Below the pieces are notes generated by a model. That model saw only the letters and a program-made list of their open reading frames with translations, did no database searches and was not told the DNA's origin. A stretch of 64,000 nt of DNA, from NCBI RefSeq assembly GCF_024508235.1, contig NZ_CP101943.1, forward strand, positions 744,001 through 808,000, given 5' to 3'. Both the position numbers and the translations under genes were made by a program. Numbering within the stretch: position 1 is the first letter of the stretch; each line of letters begins with the position of its first letter. Shown piece by piece: positions 30,717 to 60,076 of this stretch. The DNA is from Halococcus qingdaonensis. Its GTDB lineage: Archaea; Halobacteriota; Halobacteria; Halobacteriales; Halococcaceae.

Positions 30717-30752
30717 ATGATGAACGCCAGCGCACGCCCGTTCGATCAATGA
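30717..30752 (+). other. Candidate leader mini-ORF (11 codons) coupled to the FemAB-like gene
   Basis: The frame reads MMNASARPFDQ and its TGA overlaps the ATG of the next gene as ATGA. A TATA-like element lies about 30 nt before its first ATG. Coupled re-initiation is possible; coincidence cannot be excluded. Confidence 0.3.
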
Positions 30753-31759
30753 GAATCGAGCGGCTCGATCGCGACACGTGGGCGGGGGCGCTTCCCGAGC
30801 GTGGCTTCGAGGTCTTCCACACTCCCGAGGCGCTGTCCGTCCTCGATCGCCACGCATCCGGCGACTGCCATCTCTTCGGCGGCTATCGCGGCGAGCAGCT
30901 GGTGGCGATGGTGCCGCTGTTCGTCCGCCACGTCGGCGGGCTGCGGATCGTCTCCTCGCCACCGCCGGGCATGGCCATCCCCAATCTGGGACCGCTCGTG
31001 ATGCCGACCAGCCCGAAACAGCGAAAGCGCGAGAAGGTCAACCGCGAGTTCACCGCAGAACTCCTGGAGGCGCTCGATGCCGACTCGCCGCGAACGTTCG
31101 TCCGCATTCTCTGCCCGCCCGACTACACCGACCCGCGCCCGTACCGCTGGAACGGGCTGTCGGTCGAACCGGCCTTCACCTACCGCCTTACGGCCGACGA
31201 TCCCGACGAACTCATCGACTCCTTTAGCCGGAGCCTCCGCCGGGAGATCCGCTCGGGCGCTGACCTCGATATCGATATCGAGACCGCTGGAATCAGGGGC
31301 GGCGAGCGCGTCTTCAGAGAGACCGCCGCCCGCTACGCCGAACAATCCGAATCGTTCGGCCCGACGTGGCCGTACGTGCGTGACGTCATCGAGGAGTTGG
31401 GCGAGCGCTGTCGCGTCTACGTCGCCCGTGCCGACGGCGATCATCTGGGCGGGGTCATCACGCTGTTCTCGAACGATGCGGCGTACTACTGGCTCGGCGG
31501 CACGCGCGCGACCCACGAGAACGTCAGCATCAACAGCCTGCTCCACTGGCGGATCATCAACGATATCGCCGACGATCCGCCGATCGACTCCGTGAACCAG
31601 TACGACCTCGTCGGCGCGAACACCGAACAGCTCTGCCGGTACAAATCGAAGTTCGGGGGTGAGCTGACGCCCTACTACGTCGCCGAATCCGGCGGAATGG
31701 CGATGGACGTCGCAAAAAGCGGCTATCAGCTGGTCAATCGGGCCATCGATCGGTTCTAA
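30749..31759 (+). CDS. FemAB/GNAT-like transferase
   Basis: A 336-residue soluble protein of the GNAT-fold FemAB type. The N-terminal half starts MRIERLDRDTWAGAL and contains YRGEQLVAMVPLFV; the second half has the diagnostic SRSLRREIRSGADLDIDIET and VYVARADGDHLGGVITLFSN blocks, followed by YYWLGGTRATHENVSINSLL and NQYDLVGANTEQLCRYKSKF. Bacterial Fem proteins add amino acids from aminoacyl-tRNA to cell-wall precursors; relatives in polysaccharide loci acylate sugars. Here it opens the glycan locus. It ends with a 4-bp overlap against the convergent DUF354 gene. Confidence 0.8.
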   Translation: MRIERLDRDTWAGALPERGFEVFHTPEALSVLDRHASGDCHLFGGYRGEQLVAMVPLFVRHVGGLRIVSSPPPGMAIPNLGPLVMPTSPKQRKREKVNREFTAELLEALDADSPRTFVRILCPPDYTDPRPYRWNGLSVEPAFTYRLTADDPDELIDSFSRSLRREIRSGADLDIDIETAGIRGGERVFRETAARYAEQSESFGPTWPYVRDVIEELGERCRVYVARADGDHLGGVITLFSNDAAYYWLGGTRATHENVSINSLLHWRIINDIADDPPIDSVNQYDLVGANTEQLCRYKSKFGGELTPYYVAESGGMAMDVAKSGYQLVNRAIDRF

Positions 31760-32862
31760 CGCTCGGGCGTCGGCGGGTCGGTCCGTCGCGGCGGGCTACC
31801 GTGCGAGAGGCCGTCGACCCCGGCGGCCCCGTTCGGACTGGTGGCGAGTTCGACGATGACGTCGGTGAGGTTCACCTTGTCGGCCATGAACGCGTCGCGT
31901 TTGGCGGCCCAGGTCTCTGTGAGGCTATCGTCGTCGAGCAGCGACTCCGCGCGCTCGATCGCCTCGGTGAAGGAGGCGATGTTGAAGATCAGCCCTTGGC
32001 TTTCGAGCTCGATGAAGTTGCCCATGTCCTCCTCGCCGACGAAGGAGTTCGACCGGATGGCGGGCGTCCCGAGCAGCGCGGCCTCGGTGACCATCGTCTG
32101 CGTGTCGGCGACCAGGAGGTGGGCTTCGCTGAGTGCGTCGTGCAACAGCCCGGGATGGAGATCGTACGGCCGGGCGTCGATCCCGTCGAACTCCATCGTC
32201 CCGCTCTCGTCGGAGACGAAGACGGTCGCGTCGTCGCCGAGGCGTTCGATCAGCGTGCGTCGCTCGGCCGGGCCGATGCCCGACTGGCTGACGTCGTGAT
32301 GTGAGCCGAAGGCGTTGAACCGGCAGATGACGTACTTCTCGTCGGGGCCGACGCCGAGCTGTTCGCGGATGTCGTCGCGAGGGGTGAACACGTCGGGGTG
32401 GAGGTAGGCACACTCCTTGAAGCCGCGAAAGCGATAGTGGTTCGCCCCGAGATCCTTGCCGAAGGCGTCGGGCGTGAGGATGGCGTCGGCGAACGGCCGC
32501 GAGACGGTGTGATCGATCGAGGTCGGCTCCGAGTCCAGGATCAGCGTCACCGGCGTCCGCGAGAGCGCGCCTGCGTGGGCGGCGTACGCACCCATGCCGA
32601 AGATACGGTCAGGAGAATACCGCCACGTCTGTCGGAGGATCGAGAGATAGTGACGCGGGAGCTGGTAGAACAGCGACCGCTTTTTCGTCGCCAGCCGTCC
32701 GTAGAGCCGGTAGGGGAGATCGTGATAGTCGAGGAGTTCCTTCGTACAGCCGTAGTCACGACCGAGAATCAACACGTCGTGACCGCGACGTTCGAGGGCC
32801 GCGACGGCGTGTTTGTAGAGATGGACGTGCGCAGGAGTGTTCGTGAAAAACAGATAGTTCAT
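31756..32862 (-). CDS. DUF354 GT-B-fold glycan protein, copy 1
   Basis: A 368-residue protein starting MNYLFFTNTPAHVHLYKHAV. The fold is that of UDP-sugar epimerase/GT-B glycosyltransferases: the first Rossmann half contains AALERRGHDVLILGRDYG, and the C-terminal nucleotide-sugar-type half contains AHLLVADTQTMVTEAALLGTP and EEDMGNFIELES. DUF354 genes cluster with surface polysaccharide pathways; direct biochemistry is scarce. It is the only minus-strand gene at this end of the locus. A second DUF354 protein is at 39963. Confidence 0.8.
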   Translation of the reverse strand: MNYLFFTNTPAHVHLYKHAVAALERRGHDVLILGRDYGCTKELLDYHDLPYRLYGRLATKKRSLFYQLPRHYLSILRQTWRYSPDRIFGMGAYAAHAGALSRTPVTLILDSEPTSIDHTVSRPFADAILTPDAFGKDLGANHYRFRGFKECAYLHPDVFTPRDDIREQLGVGPDEKYVICRFNAFGSHHDVSQSGIGPAERRTLIERLGDDATVFVSDESGTMEFDGIDARPYDLHPGLLHDALSEAHLLVADTQTMVTEAALLGTPAIRSNSFVGEEDMGNFIELESQGLIFNIASFTEAIERAESLLDDDSLTETWAAKRDAFMADKVNLTDVIVELATSPNGAAGVDGLSHGSPPRRTDPPTPER

Positions 32863-33005
32863 TCAGTCTTGCTTCCGGCGAGGAACTCGATGCTCCTAAA
32901 CACGTCGGTCCGCCCGTCCCGACATCGGTCGGGCGAAGCCGTTACTCATATACGATCGGGCCGCGCCAGTTGAAGCGATACGCTCGACGCTGTTGGACGA
33001 CAATC

Positions 33006-34463
33006 ATGACACGGATACGAACTGCGGGAATGGTACTGGTGGTATTGCTCTCGGCGGCCGTCGGCGGCGTCGCCCTCGGTGGAACGGCGGCGGCGCTCGA
33101 TCCCGGCGCGGGCGCGACCTATCCGCTGACGCCAAGCTCCGACACGCTCGGAACGTTCGTCTACGTCGTCAGACCGGGTGATTCGGTCGCCGAGAACGGC
33201 ATCAAGGAGATCACGCTCGATGCAGGGCCGAATGCCGACGTCTCCAACGTGACCGACGACGACGTGTTCATCGCGGTGCGTGGCGGTCAGCGCATCGAGA
33301 TCGCCGAGAACAACACCGACATCGTCGATGTCGCGAACATCAGTGTCTCCTCGAATCAGGCTGGCGACGAGGTCACCATCACGCTTCCGCGGCCGGTCCA
33401 GCCGCAGTTCGCCTCCGATAGCCCGAACACCGGGGCGGAAGTCGCGGTCAAGGTGGGGAACTTCACGACGCCGGACCGACCGGGCAGCCACTCGGTCAAC
33501 GCGACGTTCGCCACCGCATCGGGGAGCACCGACGGACCGACGTCGGTCTCCTACTCGACGACTGCGCCGGAGCTGTCGATGGACAACCAGAACCTCTCGC
33601 AGTTCAGCGATCAGCAGTCGATCAACGTCTCGGCGTCGGTACCGGGCGGCGGGTACGTCGGGCTGTTTACCACGGCCCCGAACGGCTCGCCGGGTGAGCT
33701 CGTCGGTTCGACGGACGTCGCCACGGCCACGTCGAGCCAGCAGTACAGCATCGACGTGAGCGGCAACGTCACGGAGAGCCAACAGCTGATGGCCGTCGCG
33801 TACAGTGAGACGAACGGTCGCTCGGCGAGCCTCCGCGAGAACCAGACGTTCGATCCGAACGACGACGAACGGCTGCGGACCAACGGCACGCTCGTGAACG
33901 CGACCGCGAACGTCTCGACGCTCGACGTTGACGGGCAAGTCGAGGCCGGCGGCGAGTACGCACAGGGCGCACGGCTCTACTTCCCGCAGGGTGAACCGGA
34001 AACGAACTACCAGGTGCGGTCGGTCGAGGACGGCGAACTCGGCTCCGCCGCGACACAGTTCCAGACGGGCGCGAACGACACGACGATCCTCGACACGAGC
34101 GATCTCTCGGAGGGGCAGTACGCGATCACGCGGATCGCCGACGACTCGCTCGTGAGCCTCGACAACGACAGCACGACAAGCGCACAGGACGACAGTATCC
34201 TGATCACCGGCCAGCAGGCGACCACACAGGCAAACATGACGAACGCGAGTGGTGGTGCGACCGATACCGGTGCTACCGCGACCGCCAGCAGCGGCGAGGG
34301 TGACGCCGCAACCGGCGGCAACGCCAACGGAAACGGTTCGGGTACCGCCAGCGGGAACGGCTCGGGCACCGGCACCAGCTCGGGCGGTCCCGGCTTCGGC
34401 ATCGCGGTGGCCGTCGTCGCGCTGCTCGGCGCGGCGCTGCTCGCGACGCGACGCAACCGCTGA
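33006..34463 (+). CDS. Secreted PGF-CTERM surface glycoprotein, paralog A
   Basis: A 485-residue secreted protein. Signal peptide MTRIRTAGMVLVVLLSAAVG..., cleaved near TAAAL-D; the ATG at 33006 is preferred over an upstream TTG. The ectodomain is beta-rich, Asn/Thr/Ser-rich and full of N-x-S/T sequons. A low-complexity Gly/Asn/Ser/Thr linker precedes the C-terminal tripartite sorting signal: PGF, a hydrophobic helix (GIAVAVVALLGAALLA) and TRRNR. PGF-CTERM proteins are processed by archaeosortase A and lipid-anchored, as shown for haloarchaeal S-layer proteins. Its neighbour at 34700 is a paralog. Confidence 0.82.
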   Translation: MTRIRTAGMVLVVLLSAAVGGVALGGTAAALDPGAGATYPLTPSSDTLGTFVYVVRPGDSVAENGIKEITLDAGPNADVSNVTDDDVFIAVRGGQRIEIAENNTDIVDVANISVSSNQAGDEVTITLPRPVQPQFASDSPNTGAEVAVKVGNFTTPDRPGSHSVNATFATASGSTDGPTSVSYSTTAPELSMDNQNLSQFSDQQSINVSASVPGGGYVGLFTTAPNGSPGELVGSTDVATATSSQQYSIDVSGNVTESQQLMAVAYSETNGRSASLRENQTFDPNDDERLRTNGTLVNATANVSTLDVDGQVEAGGEYAQGARLYFPQGEPETNYQVRSVEDGELGSAATQFQTGANDTTILDTSDLSEGQYAITRIADDSLVSLDNDSTTSAQDDSILITGQQATTQANMTNASGGATDTGATATASSGEGDAATGGNANGNGSGTASGNGSGTGTSSGGPGFGIAVAVVALLGAALLATRRNR

Positions 34464-34682: not shown

Positions 34683-34703
34683 ATGAAGGACCTACAGCCA
34701 TGA
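34683..34703 (+). other. Candidate mini-ORF (6 codons) coupled to paralog B
   Basis: The frame reads MKDLQP and its TGA overlaps the ATG of the next gene as ATGA. No TATA element sits at leaderless spacing for the 34700 gene, so a longer leader containing this mini-ORF is plausible. Very short; may be chance. Confidence 0.2.
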
Positions 34704-36118
34704 CGACGGTACGACGCAGCGCATTCATGATCACCGTAGTGCTCGTTTCAGCACTCGTCGGCGGCATCGCCGTCAGCGGGTCGGCGGCGGCGCTCGATTC
34801 CGATACGGCGGCACCATACCCGCACTCGCCGGGGACGAGCGCGACCGATTTCCCCGTCTCGGTCGTCGCTCAGGGGAGCGATGCCATCACGCAGGACGGG
34901 ATGAAATCGATGACGGTCGACTTCGGGGCGAGCGGCAGTTTCGACGGCAGTGTCGAGAACGTCAGCGTCGGGTCGGTCTCGGTCACCGTCGCCAGTTCGA
35001 ACGGGCAGCAAACGATCGATCCGTCGAACGTCTCGACGACGTCGGACGGCCAGATCACGCTCACCTTCCAGCAGCCGGTGTCGGTGAGCGCCGACGACCG
35101 CATCATCGCCAACGTCGCGAACGTGACGACGCCGACGAGCGACGGTAGCTACTCGGTCGGCGTCTCGACGACGACGCCCTCGGGGACGACCGACGGCCCG
35201 GTGACCGACGATTATCGCATCGAGAGCGCCTCGCTGTCGTTCCCGAACCAGAGCGCCTCGCAGTTCAGCGCGAACCAGTCGGTGAACGTCTCCGGGGTCG
35301 TCCCGAACGCCGGCTACATCGGGATATTTACCGTGGCCGACAACGGCTCGCGCGGGCAGCCGGTCGGCAGTAGCCAGCCCATCGTCGCGCTGTACAACGA
35401 GCGCAACTACACCGTCAATCTCAACGGCAACGTCAACGAGAGTCAGCAGCTCATGGCGGTTGCCTACTACGAGACCAGCGGGAGCAGCCAGTCCGAACGG
35501 CTGAACGGTACGTTCGATCCGAACGAGGATGCGGTCGTGACGAACAACGGTCAGCCGGCGAACGCGACCGGCTACGTCACCACCGTCGACGCCGACGGCC
35601 GCGTCCAGTCGGGCAGCGAGTACGACCAGGGTGCGCGGCTCTACCTCGACCAGGGCGAAGCGAGCACTGGCTATCAGCTCCGTGCGGTCGAGAACGGCAG
35701 CCCCGGGCGAACGGTGAACCAGTTCGAGACTGCCGCGAACGGCTCGGCGACGATCGACACCACCGACCTCCAGCAGGGGCAGTACGTCATCACGCGGATC
35801 GACGACGGCTCGGTCGTCAGTCTCGACAACGACAGCACGACCAGTGCGCAGGACGACAGCATCACCATCACCGGTCAGCAGTTCACCGAATCGACCGCGG
35901 CCGGCGGTGGTGGGAACAACAGTAGTGCCAACGCGAGCGGCGGCGCGAGCACGGCTGCCGGTGGCAACGATGCCGGCGGCAACAGTTCGGGCAACGCCAG
36001 CGGGAACGGCTCGGGCAACGGTAGCGGCAGCAGTTCGAGCGGCCCCGGCTTCGGCATCGCGGTGGCCGTCGTCGCGCTGCTCGGCGCTGCGCTGCTCGCG
36101 ACGCGACGCGGGCGCTAA
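34700..36118 (+). CDS. Secreted PGF-CTERM surface glycoprotein, paralog B
   Basis: A 472-residue paralog of the preceding gene with the same plan: signal peptide (MTTVRRSAFMITVVLVSALV...), beta-rich sequon-rich ectodomain, Gly/Asn/Ser linker and a PGF-CTERM tail (PGFGIAVAVVALLGAALL, then ATRRGR). Shared ectodomain blocks include ESQQLMAVAY, FDPNED/FDPNDD, SLDNDSTTSAQDDSI and EGQY/QGQYVITRI. The last 70 bases of the two genes are almost the same. The two probably form or decorate the cell surface and may carry the glycan made by this locus. Confidence 0.82.
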   Translation: MTTVRRSAFMITVVLVSALVGGIAVSGSAAALDSDTAAPYPHSPGTSATDFPVSVVAQGSDAITQDGMKSMTVDFGASGSFDGSVENVSVGSVSVTVASSNGQQTIDPSNVSTTSDGQITLTFQQPVSVSADDRIIANVANVTTPTSDGSYSVGVSTTTPSGTTDGPVTDDYRIESASLSFPNQSASQFSANQSVNVSGVVPNAGYIGIFTVADNGSRGQPVGSSQPIVALYNERNYTVNLNGNVNESQQLMAVAYYETSGSSQSERLNGTFDPNEDAVVTNNGQPANATGYVTTVDADGRVQSGSEYDQGARLYLDQGEASTGYQLRAVENGSPGRTVNQFETAANGSATIDTTDLQQGQYVITRIDDGSVVSLDNDSTTSAQDDSITITGQQFTESTAAGGGGNNSSANASGGASTAAGGNDAGGNSSGNASGNGSGNGSGSSSSGPGFGIAVAVVALLGAALLATRRGR

Positions 36119-36181
36119 CCGACCCGCCGTTTCGATCGGCTTCCGACGAACGGATTTGTCTCGACCGATTGCGGTCGGGTG

Positions 36182-37384
36182 ATGACAGCATCGCAACTCC
36201 GGCCGACCGGACTCACGGGCGAGCTGCTCGGAAAGACGCTGGGCTACGCCCGCGAGCGCGACTACACCGGCTGGGATTACGGTGACGGGATGAGCAGCCG
36301 GCTGTTGCAGGCGCTGCCCGTCGACAACAAGTGGGTGAACATCGCGGTTCAGGAGACGATCAAGCGCGCGCCGGTCAACGTTCGACCGCTCTTTCTCGTC
36401 GAACAGCGCCGCAACTACAAGGGGACGGCCATGTTCACGATGGCGAACCTCGCGGCCCACGAACTGGAGTTCGGCGAGGGCAGCGGCGTTGACTACGGGC
36501 GCGAGGCGCACGATCTCGCCGAGTGGCTCGTCGAAGAGCGGACGCCGGGCTATGCGGGTTTTTGTGGTGCACACCGCCACGAAATCCAGCATCTCGACAT
36601 CAAGGGATTGCCCTCCTACCCCGACATGGTCTCGACGGCATACGCGGTGCGAGCGCTGCTCGCGGCCCACGACGCCGGGCTCGATACGGGCGGTATAGAC
36701 TATGCCGAGACCGTGCGTTCGGTCGCCGACTTCATCGACGAGGATCTCGAATACGAGGAGATCGACGATGGTGCGCGGATGAAGTACGTTCCGACGTGGT
36801 CGTCCGACCACTACACGCTCAACGCGGTCGCACTCGGCGGCGTGACGCTGCTCGAACTCGGCGCGCGCTTCGGCGGCGAGCATCGCGAGCGCGGCGAGAA
36901 ACTGCTCGATTACGTCGTCTCGTGCCAGCGGCCCGAAGGCGGCTGGATGTATCGCGATCCGCCGTCGGCGTCGCATCTATCGATGGACAACCATCACAAC
37001 GGGTTCATCATCGAGTCGCTGCTGCGCCACCGCGAGCTCACCGGTGCCGACAGGTACGAGGGGGTGCTCGACGACGCGCTCGCGTTCTATCGCGAGGAGC
37101 TGTTCGCGGACGACGGTGCGCCAAACTGGGACGAATCGAACAGCTATCCGCGGGACATCAACGCCGCCGCCCAGGGGATCATCGTCTTCAGTCGTGCCGG
37201 TGAGTTCGCGGCTGCCGAGCGGATCATCGACTGGGTGCTCGGCACGCTGTACGCCGGCGACGGGAAGTTCCGCTTCCGGCGCGAGCGCTTTTTCACCAGG
37301 CGCGTCACGCTGATGCGGTGGTGTGAGGCGTCGATGGCGTACGCGCTGGCGACCTATCTCGAGCAGCGCGCGTCGTCGGCCTGA
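36182..37384 (+). CDS. Alpha/alpha-toroid protein resembling glucuronyl C5-epimerases, copy 1
   Basis: A 400-residue soluble protein; a GTG at 36179 directly precedes the ATG used. It is helical with regularly spaced blocks typical of an (alpha/alpha)6 toroid: YVVSCQRPEGGWMYRD, SMDNHHNGFIIESLLRHREL, then FYREELFADDGAPNWDESNS and YPRDINAAAQGIIVFS. The His/Asn pair in DNHHNG and the YPRD-N-AAAQ block recur in the other toroid proteins of this locus (DNFHTG and YPHDAHAAAQ at 41060). This arrangement recalls the catalytic domain of D-glucuronyl C5-epimerase. Database names for relatives are often misleading (transporter); there are no membrane helices. Confidence 0.65.
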   Translation: MTASQLRPTGLTGELLGKTLGYARERDYTGWDYGDGMSSRLLQALPVDNKWVNIAVQETIKRAPVNVRPLFLVEQRRNYKGTAMFTMANLAAHELEFGEGSGVDYGREAHDLAEWLVEERTPGYAGFCGAHRHEIQHLDIKGLPSYPDMVSTAYAVRALLAAHDAGLDTGGIDYAETVRSVADFIDEDLEYEEIDDGARMKYVPTWSSDHYTLNAVALGGVTLLELGARFGGEHRERGEKLLDYVVSCQRPEGGWMYRDPPSASHLSMDNHHNGFIIESLLRHRELTGADRYEGVLDDALAFYREELFADDGAPNWDESNSYPRDINAAAQGIIVFSRAGEFAAAERIIDWVLGTLYAGDGKFRFRRERFFTRRVTLMRWCEASMAYALATYLEQRASSA

Positions 37385-37461: not shown

Positions 37462-37515
37462 ATGATGCCGCCGCTTTGTGTATGGCCACCGTCAGAGAGA
37501 GGGGCGGTGCTGTGA
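37462..37515 (+). other. Candidate leader mini-ORF with strong ribosome site before wecB
   Basis: The frame MMPPLCVWPPSERGAVL (17 codons) follows AAGGAGGGG at 37451-37459, an unusually strong ribosome-binding site for a haloarchaeon, and ends in TGA at 37513-37515, eight bases before a stable inverted repeat. A leader-peptide role upstream of wecB is possible but unproven. Confidence 0.3.
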
Positions 37516-37519
37516 GCGA

Positions 37520-37541
37520 CGAACCCACGATCGGTGGGTCG
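37520..37541 (+). promoter_or_regulatory. Hairpin in the wecB leader
   Basis: ACCCAC and GTGGGT pair around a 5-base loop; two more base pairs extend the stem past a single bulged A. The structure lies between the mini-ORF stop and the wecB ATG at 37574 and could be a transcription or translation control element. Confidence 0.35.
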
Positions 37542-37573
37542 CCCTGCGGTTTGGGTGCACCGAACGGGGAGGG

Positions 37574-38698
37574 ATGTCGATGACCGACGGGACGACCGTG
37601 ACGATCGTGCTCGGCACGCGCCCGGAGATCATCAAGCTCGCGCCCGTCATCGACGCCTGCGAAGAACGGGAGATCGCCTACAGCGTCGTCCACACCGGCC
37701 AGCACTACTCCGAGGAGCTGGACACCGTCTTCTTCGACCAGCTCGAACTGCCAGCGCCCGACCACAACCTCGGCGTCGGTTCCGGCTCCCAGAGCGAACA
37801 GACCGGCGCGATGATCCGCGAGATCGAGACGGTGTTGCTCGACGAGCAGCCCGAACTGGTGCTCGTTCAGGGCGATACGAACTCCGTTCTCGCGGGGGCG
37901 ATCGCGGCGGGCAAGCTCGACTGCGAGGTCGGCCACGTCGAGGCCGGCCTGCGGAGTTTCGACCGGACGATGCCCGAGGAGGTGAATCGCGTGCTCGCCG
38001 ACCACGCCGCCGACTACCGCTTCGCGCCGACCGAACAGGCTGCCGGCTATCTCCGCGAGGAGGGGATCGCCGACGACGCGATCCACGTGACCGGCAACAC
38101 GATCGTCGATGCGGTGATGGGCTATCGCGATCTCGCGGCCGCAAAGAGCGACGTTCTCGACGAGCTCGATCTCGATGCCGGCGATTTCTGTCTTCTGACT
38201 GCCCATCGCGCCGAGAACGTCGACGATCGCGAGCGCTTTTCGAGCCTGCTCGACGGCGTCGCCCGATTCGCCAGCGAATCCGATCTCGACGTCGTCTATC
38301 CGGTCCATCCGCGAGCAAACGAACGCCTCGCGGCGTTCGATCTCGCGATGCCCGACGAGATCACGCCGATCGACTCACAGGATTTCCTGGATTTCCTCCG
38401 GCTCGAAAGCACGGCGACGCTCGTGCTCACCGATTCCGGCGGCGTTCAGGAGGAAACCTGTATTCTCGGCACGCCCTGCGTCACCCTCCGTGACAACACC
38501 GAACGGCCGGAGACGGTCGACGTGGGGGCGAACCGTGTCGTCGGCGTCACCGCCGACGGGATCGTCACCGGCGCGCGCGAGGCGCTCGCCGAGCAGAACG
38601 GCTGGGAGAATCCCTTCGGCGACGGCCACAGCGCCGAGCGCATTCTTGATATCGCGGGGATCGGCTCCGCCACCTCGGTCGGGGAGGTGCACGGATGA
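37574..38698 (+). CDS. wecB: UDP-N-acetylglucosamine 2-epimerase (non-hydrolysing)
   Basis: A 374-residue cytoplasmic enzyme interconverting UDP-GlcNAc and UDP-ManNAc. Signature blocks are intact: GTRPEIIKLAPVIDA, HTGQHYSEELDTVFFDQLEL, LVQGDTNSVLAGAIAA, VGHVEAGLRSFDRTMPEEVN, LTAHRAENVDDRERF and the C-terminal LTDSGGVQEETCILGTPCVT with TERPETVDVG. The start MSMTDGTTVTIVLGTRP at 37574 is followed by a second ATG two codons on. The stop overlaps the wecC start as ATGA, giving a translationally coupled UDP-ManNAcA pathway. Confidence 0.93.
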   Translation: MSMTDGTTVTIVLGTRPEIIKLAPVIDACEEREIAYSVVHTGQHYSEELDTVFFDQLELPAPDHNLGVGSGSQSEQTGAMIREIETVLLDEQPELVLVQGDTNSVLAGAIAAGKLDCEVGHVEAGLRSFDRTMPEEVNRVLADHAADYRFAPTEQAAGYLREEGIADDAIHVTGNTIVDAVMGYRDLAAAKSDVLDELDLDAGDFCLLTAHRAENVDDRERFSSLLDGVARFASESDLDVVYPVHPRANERLAAFDLAMPDEITPIDSQDFLDFLRLESTATLVLTDSGGVQEETCILGTPCVTLRDNTERPETVDVGANRVVGVTADGIVTGAREALAEQNGWENPFGDGHSAERILDIAGIGSATSVGEVHG

Positions 38699-42238: not shown

Positions 42239-42392
42239 CGACGGTTTGCGGTGGGCGATCCGCCGGTCCGCGAACAGATATTTCTAGATAGCGACGAGAG
42301 ATACACCCTCGATCGAGCAGCTTGCGGGTGAGGATAGCTGTCCCCGGGTGTCGCGAACCGGCTGTGGATTGGATTATCAGATATCCTCCACA

Positions 42393-42400
42393 AAATATTT
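42393..42400 (+). promoter_or_regulatory. TATA-like element of the GT4 gene at 42428
   Basis: The palindrome AAATATTT is centred about 31 nt before the GTG start at 42428, inside the AT-richest stretch of this intergenic region. Confidence 0.5.
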
Positions 42401-42427
42401 GTCATCGCCACGACCATCGATCGGGTA

Positions 42428-43486: not shown

Positions 43487-43503
43487 TCAGCTGGGTCGCA
43501 AAT

Positions 43504-43510
43504 CATATAC
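43504..43510 (+). promoter_or_regulatory. TATA-like element of the propeller-formyltransferase pair
   Basis: CATATAC is centred 29 nt before the ATG at 43536; leaderless transcript likely. Confidence 0.5.
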
Positions 43511-47285: not shown

Positions 47286-47316
47286 ATGTCACAACCGCAG
47301 TCTTTTGATAGACCCC

Positions 47317-48726: not shown

Positions 48727-48835
48727 TCTTCCGGAAGGGTTTCACGCTCGGTGGCTTATGCACCTCGGTATGGCGCGTCGTTCGCCGGCACCGATCGCGT
48801 GTGGACACACCACGCGGCGGTCGAGAGCGGTAAAC

Positions 48836-48843
48836 GTTTATAA
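48836..48843 (+). promoter_or_regulatory. TATA box of the polytopic membrane gene at 48904
   Basis: GTTTATAA is centred about 64 nt before the ATG at 48904, which predicts a leader of roughly 38 nt, one of the few leadered transcripts suggested here. Confidence 0.5.
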
Positions 48844-51006: not shown

Positions 51007-51095
51007 ACGGGCGTTGTGGACGGTGTGTGGGCGACGACGCGAATGGAAACGGTAATGGGCGTCACGAGAGGAAATCCAGCCAGTATGTACCAACT

Positions 51096-52694: not shown

Positions 52695-53761
52695 TGCGCG
52701 ACACCGAACTGCTCATCGTCGGACGGCAGGGACCGGGCGGGATCGGCCAGTACATCAGCGAGCAGCGCCGTCACCTCGCCGGCCGGCTCCACGTGTCGGC
52801 GCACAAGAGCGGCGCGTTCGACACCGAGGGCGTCGGCGCGTTCGTCCGCTCGCTGCTGGTCATCGTCTGGAACATGCTCTCGTATACGGTGCGCTCGCGG
52901 CCGGATATCGTTCACATCCACTCCTCGCACCGGTTCTCGTTCTACCGGGCGGGTTACTACGTGCTCTTCAGCAAGTACGTCTGGCGGTGTCCCGTCGTCT
53001 TCCACGTCCACGGCTCCTCGTTCGACGTGTTCGTCTCGACGGAGTCGCGACCCGTGCGGTGGTTCCAGTCGGTCGTGTTCGGTGCCGCCGACGAGATCGT
53101 CGTCCTCTCCGAATACTGGAAGGAGACGCTCTCGAAACACACCGACCCCGAGAAACTCACCGTGATCCCGAACGCGGTCGACGCCGCCGACTACACGCCG
53201 TCGTTCGACGGCGACGTCCCGCACATCGTGACGGTCTCGAACCAGCTCCCGCGCAAGGGCGTCGTCGAGTTCGCCGAGGCGGTTGACGAGCTCACCGACC
53301 GCGATCTGGAGTTCCGGGTGACGATCGCGGGCAAGGGACCGCTCTCGAACCACTCCGAGCGGCTGGCCACGACCTACGACAACGTGGAGTATCTCGGCTA
53401 CATCTCCGAGGAGAAAAAGCACGAGCTGCTCGGCGCGGGTTCGATCTTCGTCCTGCCCTCCCACGCCGAGGGGCTGCCGATAGCGATGCTCGAAGCGATG
53501 GCCGCGGGCAACGCCATCGTCTCGACGACGGTGGGCGCGATTCCGGAAGTGATCGCCGACGAGCGCGGCCTGCTCGTCGAACCGGGCGACGCCGACGGGC
53601 TCGCCGACGCGCTCGCGGAACTCGTCGCCGATCCCGAGCGCGTGGCCGCGATGGGCGAGGCGAACCGACGAGCGGCAAGCGACGAGTACGCCTGGGAGAC
53701 CGTCACCGAGGAACTGCTCGCGACCTACGACCGCAATCTCGCGGCCGAGGCGCTCCGCTGA
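52694..53761 (+). CDS. Glycosyltransferase family 4 protein
   Basis: A 355-residue GT4 enzyme with a complete GT-B donor site: VIPNAVDAADYTPSFDG, VSNQLPRKGVVEFAEAVDEL and the E-x7-E block in PSHAEGLPIAMLEAMAAGN. The N-terminal acceptor half has FHVHGSSFDVFVSTESRPVR. It starts by overlapping the phosphodiesterase stop, so the pair is co-expressed and may serve one lipid-linked glycan step. Confidence 0.9.
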   Translation: MRDTELLIVGRQGPGGIGQYISEQRRHLAGRLHVSAHKSGAFDTEGVGAFVRSLLVIVWNMLSYTVRSRPDIVHIHSSHRFSFYRAGYYVLFSKYVWRCPVVFHVHGSSFDVFVSTESRPVRWFQSVVFGAADEIVVLSEYWKETLSKHTDPEKLTVIPNAVDAADYTPSFDGDVPHIVTVSNQLPRKGVVEFAEAVDELTDRDLEFRVTIAGKGPLSNHSERLATTYDNVEYLGYISEEKKHELLGAGSIFVLPSHAEGLPIAMLEAMAAGNAIVSTTVGAIPEVIADERGLLVEPGDADGLADALAELVADPERVAAMGEANRRAASDEYAWETVTEELLATYDRNLAAEALR

Positions 53762-53870: not shown

Positions 53871-55112
53871 ATGCACGTCTGTCTGCTCACCGCAGGAACG
53901 TTTCCGCCGGACGAGCGTCTCGCACAGGCGGGTGCGGCGCTGCGGGCGGGCGGCCACGCGGTGACGGTCTGTGCGCGCGGAACGGGCGGGCCGACCGAGG
54001 CGATCGTCGACGGTATCGACGTTCGGCGACTGCCCGACGACGACCTCTACTCGGGGCCCAAAGGTATCCTCGACGGCGCGCGCTACGCGCTGAGCTACGT
54101 CCAGCCCGCCTGGCTGCGTGCCGCGAGCGCGGTCGACGACGAACAGTCGATCGACGTCTGCTGTGTGACCGATCTCGACCTGCTGAAAACGGGACTGAAA
54201 ATCGGATCGAAACTCGACGTCCCCGTCGTCGCCGATCTGCCGAGCGCCCCGGCCGCCACCGCGACAGCCGAGGCCGCGCGTGGCGGTCGGCTGCGACAGT
54301 ACGGCCGCCGCGTGTTCCACTCCTCGTGGCGACGCGGCCGACTGCTCGGCAAGCGGGTCCCCGACGTGGATCGTCTGGTGACGACCTGTGAGGAGGCGCG
54401 TGCCGAGTACGTCCGCGAGCGGGAGATCGATCCCGAGCGCGTCGCGATCGTCTGCGAGACTGTCGAATCCGATCTCGCCGCGAGAACCGAGCCGGTCGAC
54501 GGACTCGGGTTCGATCACGAGACGGCGTTCGTCGTCACCGTCGTCGCCGATGGCGTTTCCCAGAACTCGCTCGAAACGGTCGTCACGGCCGCGGCGCGGG
54601 CGGCCGACCGTGCTGCCGACCTTCGCGTGCTGATCGTCGGCGACGTCGAGGAGGCGGCGCTCGACGATCTCGAACGACTCGCGCGGCGACAACTGGCCGC
54701 CGGTCGGATCAGCTTTCGCACGGAGAACCTGGAGCTGGCGAACTATCTCGCCGCGAGCGACGTCTGCGTACTGCCCGAGCGTTCGCAGGCGACGGAGACC
54801 ACGGTTCCACGGGCGTTCTTCACTGCGCTGGCGCTCGGGGTTCCAGTGGTCGCCGGCGAGACGCCACCGCTGAAGCGACTGCTCGACCGGACCGGAGCGG
54901 GGCTGTGCGTGCGACACGGAACGGGTGCGTTGACGGGGGCGCTGGTGGAGCTTGCCGATCCGGATCGGCGAAACGAACTCGCCGCGAACGCCCGCGTGGC
55001 GGCCGAGGGTGTGTTCGACAGCGAGTGCGATGCCAAGAAACTGCGTGAACTGTACGAATCGCTGCTCGTGACGCCGGAACCCGACGTTACGGTTCCGCGA
55101 GCAGATTCGTGA
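53871..55112 (+). CDS. Diverged GT4-like glycosyltransferase
   Basis: A 413-residue protein of the same length and layout as the enzyme at 58835 (compare MHVCLLTAGTFPPDERLAQA with [20 protein letters not shown]). Donor-half blocks LAASDVCVLPERSQATETTV and RAFFTALALGVPVVAGETPP correspond to the paralog, but acceptor-half residues differ: the [15 protein letters not shown] segment of the paralog reads ADLPSAPAATATAEA here. It may have changed acceptor or lost activity. Its last 26 bp overlap the convergent gene 55087-56889. Confidence 0.72.
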   Translation: MHVCLLTAGTFPPDERLAQAGAALRAGGHAVTVCARGTGGPTEAIVDGIDVRRLPDDDLYSGPKGILDGARYALSYVQPAWLRAASAVDDEQSIDVCCVTDLDLLKTGLKIGSKLDVPVVADLPSAPAATATAEAARGGRLRQYGRRVFHSSWRRGRLLGKRVPDVDRLVTTCEEARAEYVREREIDPERVAIVCETVESDLAARTEPVDGLGFDHETAFVVTVVADGVSQNSLETVVTAAARAADRAADLRVLIVGDVEEAALDDLERLARRQLAAGRISFRTENLELANYLAASDVCVLPERSQATETTVPRAFFTALALGVPVVAGETPPLKRLLDRTGAGLCVRHGTGALTGALVELADPDRRNELAANARVAAEGVFDSECDAKKLRELYESLLVTPEPDVTVPRADS

Positions 55113-56889
55113 GCGCCATCAGATACGAGCCGATCTCGTAGGAACCCTTGTACATCTGGTCGTCGATGTCGAGGCGATCGTCGACGGTGAGAAATCGCAT
55201 CGGGACGCCGAGTTCGCTCAGCTCGACGAGATTTCCACGACTGCTGTCGCCGTAGATCCAGGCCATCGCGCGACTCACCTCGGGATCGAAGTCGCGCTCG
55301 CCGCCCGCCGCCTCGTAGTGGGCGACCGCGTTGACGAAGAACGTCTGGTGGCACTCGTAGAGGAAATCCCAGTAGGGCGGGCGGAAGCCGAGGCGTTTCG
55401 TCGTCCCGCGGCGCGCGCGCCGAACCGACGACACCTCGTCCTCCCACACGAACGCGCCGTCGTCGCGCATGCGCTTGTCGATCGTCCGTTCCAACACGCG
55501 CTCGACGTTTTCGAGGTAGCCCGTCTGTCCGGTCACCTCGATCGCGCGGGCGAACCCCCAGCAGGCGTACATCTGGTTCTGGTGGCGACGGGTCGTGTGG
55601 TTGTCGAAGACGAACAGTCCGTCCGGCGTGAGCCGGTCGTTCATCAGCGCCAACGCCTCCGAGAGCGCCTCTCGCACCACCGATCCGGACTCGCGCTCGA
55701 CGAGATACGACCAGCCGTAGGCCACTAAGCTGTCCTCAGCGTGGGTGAAATCAAAGCGGTCGTGCGAGTGCTCGAACAGTTCCCACGCGACGCGCTCGTG
55801 GGTAGCGTCGAACACCTCGGCCGCGAGCGAGAACGCACAGATGAGGGGGCCGATGCCGTAGCTCGGCATCGCCGAGAGCGTCCCGTTCTCGATCTCTTCG
55901 GCGAAGTAGTCGAGCGCGCGCCGGAGTTCGTCGTCGTACCGATCGGTGCCGAGCGCGGAGACGCGCCACTGGAGCGCGCCCATGAGGCCAAAGGGCGCGT
56001 AGCGCCACAGCTCGCGGTCGTCGGGCGTCCACTCGAACTCGACATTTCCACTACCGCTACCGCCAGCAATCTCGTAGTCGAGCCCGCGGAGAATTTTTCC
56101 GTCCTCAGTGTCCCAGAAGCCGTTTTCGTCGACCGGCCGGAACAGGCAGTCGAGCGCGTCGTCGAGATAGCCCTGGTAGTCGAGCGGTTCGGCCGCGAGC
56201 ACGAGATACGAGGCGTCGTCCCAGCGCTTGCGGGCGGTGAGCTCGTCGCTCGCGCGCTCGGCAGCGTCGACGAACGGTTCCTGAAGGCTCGCCGGGAGGG
56301 TATTGAGCGCCATGTGGACGTAGTAGGGATACTGAAAGACGAGATCGGCGTCGAGCAGTCGCCAGTCGGGTGCGAGCAGCGAGAGGGCCTCGCGCGGCTC
56401 GTAGTAGTGGTTGTCGGGCCAGCCGTTCGCGGCGTAGGGCGAGCGCGGCGTCGGCACCGAGAAGACGAACTTCCCGCCATCGTCGATCACGCGCCCTACC
56501 TCGGCGGTGAGCGATTCGACGTCGAGGAACTTCCAGTCGTAGGGACCGATCGAGACGGCGGCGTCGAACGCATCGTCGGCGAAGGGAAGCGATGGCCGTT
56601 CGGGATCGGTGCTTCGGTACTCGTCGACGGCGTCGCCGATCGTCTCGCTCGCGTAGGCACTCGCGTCGTCGGAGAAATCGACGCGCGCGAGCGAGTCGGC
56701 CGCGACGCCGCGGGTGACGTTCGCTTCGGAGGCGAGATCGAGCACGCGCCCGCCGCCGAGTGCGGCGAGCGCGCGCCGGCGTTCCTCGTCGCGGAGCTGC
56801 TGGATGAGCGGGGTAGTCGGGGGCTGGCGCACCCACTTCCGGAGGATCGCGTCGCGGGTCACTGTCGGCAACGCGCTCTCGGCACACAT
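55087..56889 (-). CDS. Methyltransferase-like domain fused to an alpha/alpha-toroid domain
   Basis: A 600-residue two-domain protein. Residues about 30-235 look like a class I methyltransferase (VLDLASEANVTRGVA, then FADDAFDAAVSIGPYDWKFL and VIDDGGKFVFSVP), but the Gly-rich SAM motif is degenerate (ASEANV where GxGxG is expected). Residues about 240-600 form a toroid with YAPFGLMGALQWRVSALG, HSHDRFDFTHAEDSLVAYGW, FVFDNHTTRRHQNQMYACWG and MYKGSYEIGSYLMALTNLL, related in style to the epimerase-like proteins at 36182 and 41060. The start ATG at 56889 overlaps the TATA-like element of the divergent gene. Confidence 0.65.
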   Translation of the reverse strand: MCAESALPTVTRDAILRKWVRQPPTTPLIQQLRDEERRRALAALGGGRVLDLASEANVTRGVAADSLARVDFSDDASAYASETIGDAVDEYRSTDPERPSLPFADDAFDAAVSIGPYDWKFLDVESLTAEVGRVIDDGGKFVFSVPTPRSPYAANGWPDNHYYEPREALSLLAPDWRLLDADLVFQYPYYVHMALNTLPASLQEPFVDAAERASDELTARKRWDDASYLVLAAEPLDYQGYLDDALDCLFRPVDENGFWDTEDGKILRGLDYEIAGGSGSGNVEFEWTPDDRELWRYAPFGLMGALQWRVSALGTDRYDDELRRALDYFAEEIENGTLSAMPSYGIGPLICAFSLAAEVFDATHERVAWELFEHSHDRFDFTHAEDSLVAYGWSYLVERESGSVVREALSEALALMNDRLTPDGLFVFDNHTTRRHQNQMYACWGFARAIEVTGQTGYLENVERVLERTIDKRMRDDGAFVWEDEVSSVRRARRGTTKRLGFRPPYWDFLYECHQTFFVNAVAHYEAAGGERDFDPEVSRAMAWIYGDSSRGNLVELSELGVPMRFLTVDDRLDIDDQMYKGSYEIGSYLMALTNLLAEP

Positions 56890-56916: not shown

Positions 56917-57810
56917 ATGTCCGACGACTCACTCGTTTCGGTCGTGATCCCGACCTACTACCGCAACGATCGCCTCCGCGAGGCCATCGAGAGCGTCGTC
57001 TCACAGACGCAGCCGACGGAGATCATCGTCGTCGACGACTCCGGCGAGGGCCACGCAAAGCCCGTCGTCGACGAGTACGACCTCACGTATGTCGAGCTCG
57101 ATAGCAATATCGGATCGAACCCCGCCCGCAGCGTGGGTGCCGAGCGCGCATCGGGGGAGTACGTCCAGTTCCTCGACGACGACGACCGACTACTGCCCAC
57201 GAAACTCGCCGATCAGGTAGCGCTACTCGAACGCACGGGTGCGAGCGTCGCCTACTGCGGAATGACCTACGAGGACGGCACGACGATCCTTCCTGATCCG
57301 TCCGCCCGTGGCGACGTGCTCGCTCGCGCGCTCGAGTTCTCCCTCTCGCCGTGTGTCACCTCGACGATGCTCGTCGCGCGCGATGTGCTCGAAGCGGTGC
57401 TGCCGCTACCCGACCGCCCCGGCGGCGACGATCTCGGACTGATGATCGATCTCGCGCGCGAGCACGAGTTCGAGTACGTCGACGAGGCGCTGGTCGATCG
57501 CGGCGTCATCGATGACTCGCGGGGCAAATCACCGGGGCTCATCCGCGGGCGCAGGGAGATCATCCAGGAATACGACGATCTCTACGACGACTTTCCGTCC
57601 TCCGTGCGGGCGAACGCCCTGGCGAACACCGACAAACTGGAAGCCCGGATGGAACTGCGCGGCCGGCGGTGGTCGTTCTCGACAGTGCGTTCGTTCGCAC
57701 TCGCGTGCTATCACGCGCCCTCGCTCCGGACGGTGATTCCCCTGTTCGCCTCGCTGTTCGGACAGGTGGGGATGGACGCGATGCAGCGTGGCTACTCGCT
57801 GGTTCGATAG
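56917..57810 (+). CDS. Glycosyltransferase family 2 protein
   Basis: A 297-residue GT-A enzyme. The N-terminus SLVSVVIPTYYRNDRLREAI and VVDDSGEGH are the GT2 nucleotide-binding strands, and QFLDDDDRLLPTKLADQVAL holds the metal-binding DxD. GGDDLGLMIDLAREHEFEYV contains the expected catalytic acidic residues. The ATG at 56917 is chosen over a long upstream reading that is antisense to the fusion gene. It should add a sugar using a nucleotide-sugar donor. Confidence 0.88.
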   Translation: MSDDSLVSVVIPTYYRNDRLREAIESVVSQTQPTEIIVVDDSGEGHAKPVVDEYDLTYVELDSNIGSNPARSVGAERASGEYVQFLDDDDRLLPTKLADQVALLERTGASVAYCGMTYEDGTTILPDPSARGDVLARALEFSLSPCVTSTMLVARDVLEAVLPLPDRPGGDDLGLMIDLAREHEFEYVDEALVDRGVIDDSRGKSPGLIRGRREIIQEYDDLYDDFPSSVRANALANTDKLEARMELRGRRWSFSTVRSFALACYHAPSLRTVIPLFASLFGQVGMDAMQRGYSLVR

Positions 57811-57813: not shown

Positions 57814-58743
57814 CTATTCGTCGTGCGACGCCCGCCAGTTCATCGCGGTGTCGCGTGCGCGGCGAGCAGCACCGAGCGCGTGCTGACCGAGCAGCGCGAA
57901 CAGCATGATGAACGTGCTCTCGGCGGAGCGCTTGTAGCCCATCGCACGGCGTGCATAGGCGAACGCACGCCGGCGCTGACCGCGTTCGAGCGCGACTCGC
58001 GCGTGCGCTCGACACTGCTTCTCGCGGAGGCGACGCTCGATATCGGGGTATCTCTCGATCTCTTCGCGGTACTTCTCCCAGATCATCTGATTGACATCGA
58101 CGCCGTGGGTGAGCTGCTGTGAGATGTTGTCCGTATGGAAGATGCGTTCGACGAGGCGCTCGTCGACGTACTCGAACTCGTACTCCTTGGCGAGACGGAT
58201 GCAGTGGTCCCAGTCCACGCCGCGGGGAAAGCCGGGATCGAACCCACCGAGCTCGAAACATTCGGCGCGCAGCATGTGGCTCGAATGGGGATGGAGACCG
58301 AACCGGGCGATGACGTCGGGATAGATGTCGCCGCGGCGCTCGGGGCGATAGACTCTGACCACTCGTTCGCCCTGTTTGACCACTCCACCGGTGTAGACGA
58401 TACCGACCTCGTCGTTCGCGCGCTCGAAGGCAGCGAGTTGTTTTTCGACCTTCTCCTCGTGCCAGCGGTCGTCGTCGTTGAGCACGCAGACGAACTCGCC
58501 GTCGGCGAGCTCTGCCGCACGATTCATGCTCGCCGAAATGCCGCGATTTTCCCCGTTGTGGCGGACGCGCACGCGGTCGTCGTCCTCGTAGGCCGCGAGC
58601 CGTTCTTCCGTGTCGTCGGTCGAGCCGTCGTCGACGACCACGACCTCGATCTCGTCGTGGCTCTGTTCCAAAACGGTGTCGATGGCCCCGGAAACGTAGT
58701 CGGCGCGGTTGTACGTCGGGAGGATAGCGCTGACGAGGGTCAT
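57814..58743 (-). CDS. Glycosyltransferase family 2 protein
   Basis: A 309-residue GT2 enzyme: LVSAILPTYNRADYVSGAID, VVVVDDGSTDDTEERLA, the DxD-type CVLNDDDRWHEEK and GGFDPGFPRGVDWDHCIRLA. The start at 58743 (MTLVSAILPTY) is preferred to an ATG seven codons upstream; a TTTTCA element is centred about 27 nt before it. It converges on the other GT2 gene with 3 bp between stops. Confidence 0.87.
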   Translation of the reverse strand: MTLVSAILPTYNRADYVSGAIDTVLEQSHDEIEVVVVDDGSTDDTEERLAAYEDDDRVRVRHNGENRGISASMNRAAELADGEFVCVLNDDDRWHEEKVEKQLAAFERANDEVGIVYTGGVVKQGERVVRVYRPERRGDIYPDVIARFGLHPHSSHMLRAECFELGGFDPGFPRGVDWDHCIRLAKEYEFEYVDERLVERIFHTDNISQQLTHGVDVNQMIWEKYREEIERYPDIERRLREKQCRAHARVALERGQRRRAFAYARRAMGYKRSAESTFIMLFALLGQHALGAARRARDTAMNWRASHDE

Positions 58744-58804
58744 GGACCGGGTTCGACCCATCACGGTGAAAACCCCTCGTGTCGCGGTCGCGGCGTGAAC
58801 CCAG

Positions 58805-58811
58805 CCTTAAG
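58805..58811 (+). promoter_or_regulatory. TATA-like element of the GT4 gene at 58835
   Basis: CCTTAAG is centred 27 nt before the ATG at 58835; leaderless transcript likely. Confidence 0.5.
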
Positions 58812-58834
58812 TCCCTGAGCGTGTTCCGGGTGGT

Positions 58835-60076
58835 ATGCACGTCTGTATGCTCCTCCCCGAGCGCTTCCCGCCGGATATCCGCGTCCGGAAGGAGGCGTCG
58901 GCGCTGCGTATGGCCGGCCACACCATCACGCTGCTCTGTCGCGGCGGGCCGACCGAGCAGAGCTTCGCGCGCCTCGACGGGATCGACGTCGAGCGCCTGC
59001 CCGCCGATCGGTTGTTCGCTGGCCTCTCGGGAATGATCGACGGGCTCCGCTACGTCGCGAGCGCCGTCCATCCGGCCTGGCAGCGCGCCGTCCGGGAACT
59101 CGATCGACAGAACCCGATCGACGCCCTCCACGTCCACGATCTCCCGCTCGTACAGACGGGGCTGGCGCTCGGTGAGGAGCTCGACGTGCCGGTCGTCGCC
59201 GACCTTCACGAGAACTACCCGGAGGCGGCCCGGCAGATACAGCAAATGCGCGGTTGGGGCGAGATCGCCCGCGATCCGGAGGCGCTCGTCCAGCGCGTCG
59301 CCTTCGCACCCTGGCGGCTCAAACGTCTCGAACGCACAGGTGTGAAGCACGCCGATCGCACCGTCACGGTCTGCGAGGAGGCCCGCGCACACTACATCCG
59401 TGACTGCGGCGCGGAGCCCGCTGACGTGACGGTCGTCTCGAACACCGTCGATCTCGACGCCTTCGCCGGCGACGTCGAGCCGCCCGCGACGCTCGATCTC
59501 GCTCCCGACTCGTTCGTCGTCTCCTACGTCGGCAACTTCACGCGTCACCGTGGGCTCGACACGCTCGTCGAGGGGTTCGCGCGACTCGTCGAGGAGAGCC
59601 CCGATGCCGAGCTCCTGCTCGTCGGGACGGGCAACGACAACTACGTCGGGGGGCTGAAGGCGCTCGCCCGCTCGCTCGGCATTCGTGAGCGGGTCACGTT
59701 CACCGGCTGGGTCGATTTCGCCGACGTTCCCCGCTATCTGGCCGCGAGCGACGTCTCGGCCGTGCCCCACGCCGCGACGGCACACACTGAGACGACCGTC
59801 CCGCACAAGCTCTTCCAGGCGATGGCGATGGGCGTCCCGGTCGTCGCGAGCGACGTCGCACCGCTCGCGCGCATCGTGGGTCGCACCGACTGTGGGCTCG
59901 TCACGCCGGCCGGCGACGGCGACGCGCTCGGCACGGCGCTCGCCGAACTCACCGACGAGGATCGGGCGAGCGACTGTGGGACGAACGGGAGGGCGGCTGT
60001 CGAGGACGAGTACAACTGGGCGCGCGACGGCCAACGGCTGTGTGATCTCTACGACGGACTGCGCGTCGAGGGGTAG
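58835..60076 (+). CDS. Glycosyltransferase family 4 protein
   Basis: A 413-residue GT4 enzyme with a full set of blocks: [92 protein letters not shown] and [20 protein letters not shown]. The protein at 53871 is a paralog that has lost several of these. It is the last gene of the glycan locus; the sugar dehydrogenase follows 40 bp later on the same strand. Confidence 0.88.

Follow-up and report, generated by a model that had tools for sequence, protein, structure and literature searches.

A 64,000-nucleotide stretch of the Halococcus qingdaonensis genome (the window; positions 744001–808000 of a 2.70-Mb contig) contains a surface-glycan locus at 30749–60076. The locus may build an acidic glycan for the Halococcus surface on a lipid carrier; this glycan would most likely belong to the wall heteropolysaccharide. 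The full explanation has a probability of roughly 0.35. As their families strongly suggest, WecB and a WecC-type dehydrogenase would make UDP-N-acetylmannosaminuronic acid (UDP-ManNAcA). Judging from gene coupling, the transferase gtB would add ManNAcA to the growing lipid-linked chain in the cytoplasm. The incorporated aminouronic residue would then be altered by toroid 2, one of three predicted alpha/alpha toroid proteins, and in a second setting by toroid 3, a methyltransferase-like/toroid fusion. By analogy with the archaeal epimerase Agl32, the most likely alteration would be C5-epimerisation of D-ManNAcA to N-acetyl-L-gulosaminuronic acid (L-GulNAcA). Toroid 1, the transferase gtA and a FemAB-like acyltransferase would form a separate, more widespread module that acts on another uronate. 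A flippase would export the chain, and the 11-helix membrane protein tm700 may polymerise or ligate it.

An earlier sequence-only reading had suggested that the locus could build an aminouronic-acid surface polymer, possibly of gulosaminuronic acid with amino-acid bridges, in line with the known wall chemistry of Halococcus. That interpretation is partly supported and stands as a testable, unproven candidate. The genus, the conservation, the UDP-ManNAcA-type supply genes, two epimerase-like folds and the link between wecC and both toroid 2 and the fusion speak for it, but the specificity for walled organisms was not borne out. The genes on which the argument rests are:

30749–31759, forward strand: FemAB-like/GNAT acyltransferase (femab; PF13480, E 3.3e-19)
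31756–32862, reverse strand: DUF354 GT-B-like transferase A (gtA), the usual partner of toroid 1 (PF04007, 32 bits)
36179–37384, forward strand: toroid 1, predicted alpha/alpha toroid of the N-acylglucosamine 2-epimerase (AGE) type (AlphaFold2 model, fold comparison)
37478–38698, forward strand: WecB, UDP-GlcNAc 2-epimerase (TIGR00236); the true start is probably about 100 bases downstream
38695–39966, forward strand: WecC-type nucleotide-sugar dehydrogenase, probably a UDP-ManNAc dehydrogenase (NF040825, NF008286)
39963–41063, forward strand: DUF354 GT-B-like transferase B (gtB), candidate aminouronate transferase (PF04007, 82 bits with a slightly longer frame)
41060–42238, forward strand: toroid 2, candidate aminouronate C5-epimerase (32% identical to toroid 1, with shared invariant residues)
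55087–56889, reverse strand: toroid 3, methyltransferase-like domain (residues ~10–235) fused to a predicted AGE-type toroid (residues 237–600; AlphaFold2 model)

The wecB-wecC-gtB-toroid 2 core

Each neighbouring pair in the series wecB, wecC, gtB and toroid 2 is joined by a 4-bp ATGA overlap. WecB scores well above the cut-off of its NCBIfam equivalog model (TIGR00236, 403 bits versus 210). The best models for the dehydrogenase are the archaeal UDP-ManNAc dehydrogenase NF040825 (361 bits) and NF008286 (323 bits), whereas the UDP-glucose dehydrogenase AglM reaches 192 bits and stays under its cut-off. Both best scores are below the equivalog cut-offs of 750 and 459 bits, respectively; the protein is therefore termed WecC-like and not assigned as WecC. 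Ten homologues (38–58% identity to the window gene) were chosen from 44 places at loci with a toroid or gtB. In all ten the two UDP-ManNAc dehydrogenase models outscore the UDP-glucose models, and none of the ten reaches an equivalog cut-off. Supply of UDP-ManNAcA by the locus is quite probable.

Co-occurrence of the toroids with wecC

The distribution of the genes was surveyed in 293 genomes from 87 genera of the order, 283 of them outside Halococcus. Toroid 1 is the most widespread toroid (82 genomes, 36 genera). Toroid 2 is present in 21 genomes of 10 genera at E ≤ 1e-70, gtB in 38 genomes of 17 genera and the fusion in 28 genomes of 16 genera. Four of the fusion matches outside the genus are partial or toroid-only (G017, G275, G173 and G106) and are left out of the co-occurrence count; the full-length fusion is held by 11 genera besides Halococcus.

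Outside Halococcus, the wecC type (E ≤ 1e-90 to the window gene) is present in 67 of the 283 genomes. It accompanies toroid 2 in 8 of 12 genomes versus 59 of the remaining 271 (22%; Fisher P 0.0015), gtB in 23 of 29 versus 44 of 254 (17%; P 2e-11) and the full-length fusion in 14 of 14 versus 53 of 269 (20%; P 6e-10), in tests that ignore phylogeny and with a line that was set after the list had been seen. One genome with the fusion lies near that line, at 4e-94. For toroid 1 there is no such association (18 of 72 versus 49 of 211, 23%; P 0.44). Since toroid 2 and the fusion show one, the gulosaminuronic idea fits these two better than toroid 1.

The fusion lies at most 140 bases from wecC in 5 of the 14 genomes. 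Among 28 genomes outside the family, wecC is found at most 3 kb from gtB in 17 and a toroid in 16, with both present in 6 and neither in 1. G010, a genome of the same family, is omitted from this neighbourhood count but included in the co-occurrence tests, which gives 29 genomes for gtB and 12 instead of 11 for toroid 2. The chance that toroid 2 acts on an aminouronate is about even. In G037 (L131/L164) the toroid 2 homologue contains one in-frame TGA and is possibly a pseudogene.

Predicted folds of the toroids

Structure prediction, which the sequence-only reading had named as a check, gave epimerase-like folds for both proteins that were modelled, toroid 1 and the fusion. The AlphaFold2 model of toroid 1 (alignment A1, 22 sequences) has a mean pLDDT (predicted local distance difference test) of 86.9. 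Its nearest fold among the 50 matches listed is cellobiose 2-epimerase (Foldseek and VIA-align; Z 29.9, rmsd 3.2, 332 residues). GH76 mannanases, glucose 2-epimerase and drimenyl diphosphate synthase are close behind among these matches. The model of the fusion (alignment A2, 18 sequences; pLDDT 90.7) is likewise nearest to cellobiose 2-epimerase in its toroid part (Z 30.7, rmsd 3.2, 334 residues; 50 matches listed), and Foldseek aligns its N-terminal part with methyltransferases. Both models thus have the predicted alpha/alpha toroid fold of the AGE superfamily. The epimerases GlcE and DSepi1 are absent among the 50 matches listed for either model, an absence that is no proof of difference.

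Family searches connect the toroids only loosely with known proteins. The 22 members of A1 give weak and mixed Pfam matches, including GH76 and pectic acid lyase, and the AGE family PF07221 is not among the 12 Pfam families matched at E ≤ 10. The fusion toroid matches PF07221 at E 0.0074 with 16 bits, under the cut-off of 23.4. A profile of toroids 1 and 2 retrieved nothing below E 0.24 from the sequences of solved structures. Profile comparison of this family with the fusion gives a weak link (E 1.5e-4, probability 51%). The invariant residues of toroid 1 include H266, H273, R380 and W381, and toroid 2 has invariant residues in common with it.

A simple hydropathy scan of 25 genes shows no N-terminal signal or anchor in any of the three toroid proteins, which fits cytoplasmic enzymes that act on a lipid-linked precursor. 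The proteins that pass the scan are the flippase, tm700, the two PGF-CTERM proteins, toroid 2 with one internal stretch and one GT4 with two.

Methyltransferases are expected to have a glycine-rich S-adenosylmethionine motif. The methyltransferase-like domain of the fusion reads VLD-x-ASE-xx-VT at this place (around residues 48–60), with eight positions invariant in 18 homologues.

Conservation in Halococcus and wall chemistry

The genus, which had been unproven, is Halococcus: among the named genomes scanned, Halococcus morrhuae DSM 1307 and H. thailandensis JCM 13552 each have a toroid 1 with 97% identity to that of the window. Toroid 1 is found in all ten Halococcus genomes of the draw, including that of the window. 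Conservation within the genus was confirmed for most of the locus in the five regions that were read (G003, G004, G005, G007 and G008): gtA, both PGF-CTERM proteins, toroid 1, wecB, wecC, gtB, toroid 2, apA, tm700, pde, two GT4, the fusion and both GT2 are kept in every one. FemAB adjoins gtA in three of the five; in G003 and G008 the two are about 10 kb apart.

The wall heteropolysaccharide of H. morrhuae contains gulosaminuronic acid and N-glycyl-glucosamine, and the wall of strain CCM 859 contains 110 nmol/mg gulosaminuronic acid, 100 nmol/mg glycine and 470 nmol/mg glucuronic acid, according to a passage of PMC4187196. This polymer comes from the same genus as the window, and the draft assembly of H. 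morrhuae DSM 1307, a different strain from the one analysed for its wall, carries both ends of the locus with 93–97% DNA identity.

The proposed toroid 1 module

That the gene set is special to walled haloarchaea is not supported, given the presence of toroid 1 in 82 of the 293 genomes and its neighbourhood elsewhere. For the latter, 64 of 79 named loci were counted, a few of which share an organism; three loci taken as Halococcus and 12 shorter than 18 kb were left out. Within 3 kb of toroid 1, these non-Halococcus loci have FemAB in 35 cases, gtA in 29, wecB in 25 and wecC in 13.

The FemAB-like protein itself matches the FemAB family PF02388 below threshold (E 0.003, 16.9 of 24 bits), and PF02388 matches 13 of 17 aligned members, the window protein included, at E ≤ 1 (best 2e-8). 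Its best PDB chain is a lipid II glycyltransferase, with a weak E of 0.12. FemAB accompanies toroid 1 in walled and other haloarchaea; it therefore gives no special support for a glycyl bridge in the wall. Its position near the locus in all five Halococcus regions raises the odds of such a bridge slightly, and it is still unlikely that FemAB makes one.

Observations that weigh against the proposal

A number of observations weigh against the proposal, in addition to the treatment of phylogeny and threshold in the co-occurrence tests and the independence of toroid 1 from the wecC type. The predicted fold does not give the reaction, as it also fits hydrolases and lyases. Profile alignment with true AGE proteins gives weak matches in which the conserved His segments fall on different helices, so no catalytic His pair is assigned. 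C5-epimerisation is a tentative assignment, clearly short of even odds.

Furthermore, the genome has a second wecC-like copy (1.248 Mb) with no toroid nearby, which ranks the same models best; the model ranking alone is therefore not specific to the glycan locus. In four genomes of one genus the wecC type is missing although toroid 2 and gtB are present. Conversely, four wecC-gtB loci (L201–L204) are without a toroid match; the toroid is therefore not obligatory. Within Halococcus, the stretch with the formyltransferase is variable. The wall is sulfated, yet the genome of the window has no match to the sulfotransferase family PF00685 at E ≤ 1 and none to PF13469 at E ≤ 0.01; one of eight Halococcus genomes has a single sub-threshold match to PF13469.

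Toroid 1 and FemAB adjoin in many other haloarchaea. In Haloferax denitrificans ATCC 35960 and H. gibbonsii ATCC 33959, toroid 1, wecB, wecC and FemAB occur together (L083 and L078). The published exopolysaccharides of these two strains, D-GlcA2,3NAc with galactose and a neutral polymer, respectively, are without gulosaminuronic acid (PMC3191746). Frequent occurrence of the same locus in haloarchaea that have only S-layer glycoproteins and lack this sugar had been named beforehand as grounds for rejecting the idea, and this case partly corresponds to it. It is no disproof, because these loci may make a different glycan (nothing ties them to that polymer) and the toroid is type 1.

The species with the known sugar is uninformative on the central prediction because of a gap in its assembly. 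In DSM 1307 one contig ends at window position 37956, inside wecB, and another starts at 44726. The intervening part (37957–44725: the rest of wecB, wecC, gtB, toroid 2, a GT4 and nearly all of the propeller gene) has only distant matches. Apart from one distant wecC paralogue, wecC, gtB and toroid 2 were not found elsewhere in DSM 1307 (E 1e-70, 1e-65 and 1e-60).

Alternative explanations

The locus could make a protein-linked glycan, for example on the two PGF-CTERM proteins, or an exopolysaccharide, which would be compatible with an aminouronate epimerase activity of the toroid. The two surface proteins lie inside the locus, and the same gene kinds are found in Haloferax, Halorubrum, Natrialba and Natrinema, which are S-layer genera. 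The oligosaccharyltransferase gene aglB (STT3) is on the same chromosome, about 25 kb past the end of the window (L145:5228–8272, reverse strand). However, about 29 kb separate aglB from the last gene of the locus, and the scanned neighbours of aglB include two glycosyltransferases, one GT2 and one GT4-like, which lie next to it. Moreover, the wall of H. salifodinae contains no protein of the kind found in S-layers, as a passage of PMC4187196 reports. A protein-linked glycan or exopolysaccharide as the product is somewhat unlikely; the wall polymer, as opposed to any other surface glycan, has slightly less than an even chance.

Alternatively, the toroids could be C5-epimerases of glucuronic acid (GlcA) that yield L-iduronic acid, with WecB and WecC serving another step. 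Agl32 of Halobacterium salinarum is a reported archaeal uronate C5-epimerase, which acts on GlcA within a lipid-linked tetrasaccharide and has a predicted fold with the same nearest neighbours as the toroids, the AGE-family epimerases; it is without the conserved catalytic residues of GlcE, DSepi1 and cellobiose 2-epimerase (excerpts of PMC13308652). Glucuronic acid is also abundant in the H. morrhuae wall, but the passage with the wall table gives no iduronic acid (PMC4187196). A probable Agl32 homologue of N. bangense (L146:14390–15505, about 3 kb from aglB) was identified by its place and weak family hints. The profile of toroids 1 and 2 ranks it first among 178 open reading frames from five stretches around aglB, with a non-significant E of 0.12. 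BLAST and phmmer (single-sequence HMMER) found no match between this protein and the three toroids, and toroid 1 as an Agl32 orthologue is unsupported. Toroid 2 and the fusion also track a dehydrogenase that scores as the UDP-ManNAc type. That the toroids are GlcA epimerases is quite unlikely. The toroids of the window may work like Agl32 without being placed in its family.

The fold would also fit a role of the toroids in trimming or adjusting precursors, as hydrolases, lyases or 2-epimerases. GH76, GH88 and GH105 enzymes are included in the fold lists of toroid 1 and the fusion, and the weak Pfam matches to GH76 and pectic acid lyase point the same way. For enzymes acting on a finished polymer, on the other hand, the lack of an N-terminal signal or anchor would be odd, and such an activity is considered unlikely.

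Comparison with known systems

The proposed epimerisation on lipid-linked ManNAcA has partial counterparts. Like the toroids, Agl32 has a predicted all-helical fold near AGE sugar epimerases and is encoded in a glycan cluster; it differs in acting on GlcA and in that its gene belongs to the aglB cluster and is not found with wecBC (parts of PMC13308652). AglQ of Haloferax volcanii is a soluble AGE/GH88-like isomerase candidate in glycan assembly, but it belongs to an N-glycan pathway (excerpt of PMC3827465). The C5-epimerisation of mannuronate in bacterial and algal alginate, at the level of the polymer, is the same change from D-manno to L-gulo configuration (passage of PMC13308652).

The 2-epimerase and 6-dehydrogenase pair resembles the WecB-WecC route of enterobacterial common antigen. 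Here it is followed by a DUF354 transferase and then a toroid, whereas the bacterial route is not known to include a toroid. Alginate, in turn, contains no amino sugar, and alginate epimerases have folds unlike those of the toroids.

Remaining genes of the locus

All gene types named in the sequence-only reading are present, as checked by family searches and, for the GT2 pair, by reading. The count of six ordinary glycosyltransferases holds (four GT4 and two GT2); beyond these, gtA and gtB are DUF354 proteins that resemble GT-B transferases. Some frames had to be corrected with the third-position GC content, which discriminates true from false frames in the window. The open reading frame listed at 41050–42291 is in the wrong frame (0.44; 0.79 for 40775–42238 on the forward strand), and the real frame of toroid 2 is 41060–42238. 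The one listed at 47305–48843 is also wrong (0.67; 0.84 for 47317–48726 on the reverse strand). The other genes of the locus are:

32970–34463, forward strand: surface protein with DUF7282 and PGF-CTERM (archaeosortase type; family searches)
34700–36118, forward strand: second surface protein with DUF7282 and PGF-CTERM (family searches)
42428–43486, forward strand: GT4 glycosyltransferase (PF00534), variable stretch
43536–44741, forward strand: beta-propeller-like protein, variable stretch (fold judged from sequence; no Pfam match with a longer frame)
44738–45616, forward strand: formyltransferase-like protein, variable stretch (PF00551, 26.6 bits, cut-off 26.1)
45738–47285, forward strand: flippase, variable stretch (PF01943, E 4e-19; 12 hydrophobic stretches)
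47317–48726, reverse strand: alkaline-phosphatase-superfamily enzyme (apA) resembling an arylsulfatase model, with Thr at the nucleophile site by eye
48904–51006, forward strand: polytopic membrane protein of 700 residues (tm700), candidate polymerase or ligase (11 hydrophobic stretches)
51027–52694, forward strand: PDE/NPP-type enzyme of the alkaline-phosphatase superfamily (pde; PF01663, E 4e-40)
52694–53761, forward strand: GT4 glycosyltransferase (family search)
53871–55112, forward strand: GT4 glycosyltransferase (family search)
56917–57810, forward strand: GT2 glycosyltransferase (recognised by reading)
57814–58764, reverse strand: GT2 glycosyltransferase (recognised by reading)
58835–60076, forward strand: GT4 glycosyltransferase (family search)

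The tandem PGF-CTERM/DUF7282 proteins are found beside toroid 1 in all five Halococcus regions and in none of the 64 named non-Halococcus loci at ≥30% identity over half the protein. The second one has a 51% match in G010, from the same family, and one 29% match in L034.

The variable stretch with GT4, propeller, formyltransferase and flippase (42428–47285) is present in one of the five regions (G004), where the flippase is reversed. In G003, G005, G007 and G008 apA directly follows toroid 2 and the stretch is absent at that place. H. thailandensis (L037) has the propeller and formyltransferase genes, the latter followed by apA, but too little space for the GT4. Neither the formyltransferase nor this flippase is thus a fixed part of the locus. 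The propeller and formyltransferase-like genes are joined by an ATGA overlap like those of the core. Formyltransferases carry an N-x-H motif; the window protein has S-V-H at this place and therefore may be no normal formyltransferase.

The resemblance of apA to the arylsulfatase model amounts to 118 of 481 bits. Formylglycine sulfatases have the nucleophile motif C-x-P-S-R, which apA lacks; placed by eye, T-L-A-S-S is found there. For tm700, Pfam and NCBIfam scans gave no match. A Thr-Ala repeat near its C-terminus (~50785–50955) matches eight H. morrhuae contigs at the DNA level and is probably of low complexity.

The second wecC-like copy of the genome lies in a second glycan cluster (L210; G000:C1:1238001–1258000). 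This cluster also contains genes similar to FemAB (35%), PDE (29%), the flippase (52%) and wecB (45%), with 40% for the wecC-like gene, as well as a PseC/LegC-like aminotransferase and a GT2-like gene by reading. No toroid match is found within its 20 kb. Past the glycan locus of the window, Gfo/Idh-like, enolase-superfamily-like and sugar ABC ATPase-like genes were recognised by reading at 60117–63583, perhaps for pentose catabolism.

Implications

Chemically, the Halococcus wall has been known for decades; the literature matches listed include no genes for it and no paper that ties genes to this wall or to ManNAcA in haloarchaea. The locus yields a short, ordered list of candidate genes for the wall polymer. 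Within this list toroid 2 and the fusion replace toroid 1 as the focus and are expected to control the aminouronic acid. In its strongest form, which is unlikely to hold, the proposal makes these two proteins representatives of a class of C5-epimerases, present in Halococcus and other haloarchaea, that act on the aminouronate of lipid-linked ManNAcA and differ in sequence from Agl32; the locus would then be the first set of genes assignable to L-gulosaminuronic acid and the Halococcus wall polymer. If proven, an aminouronate C5-epimerase of toroid fold would be a second archaeal example beside Agl32.

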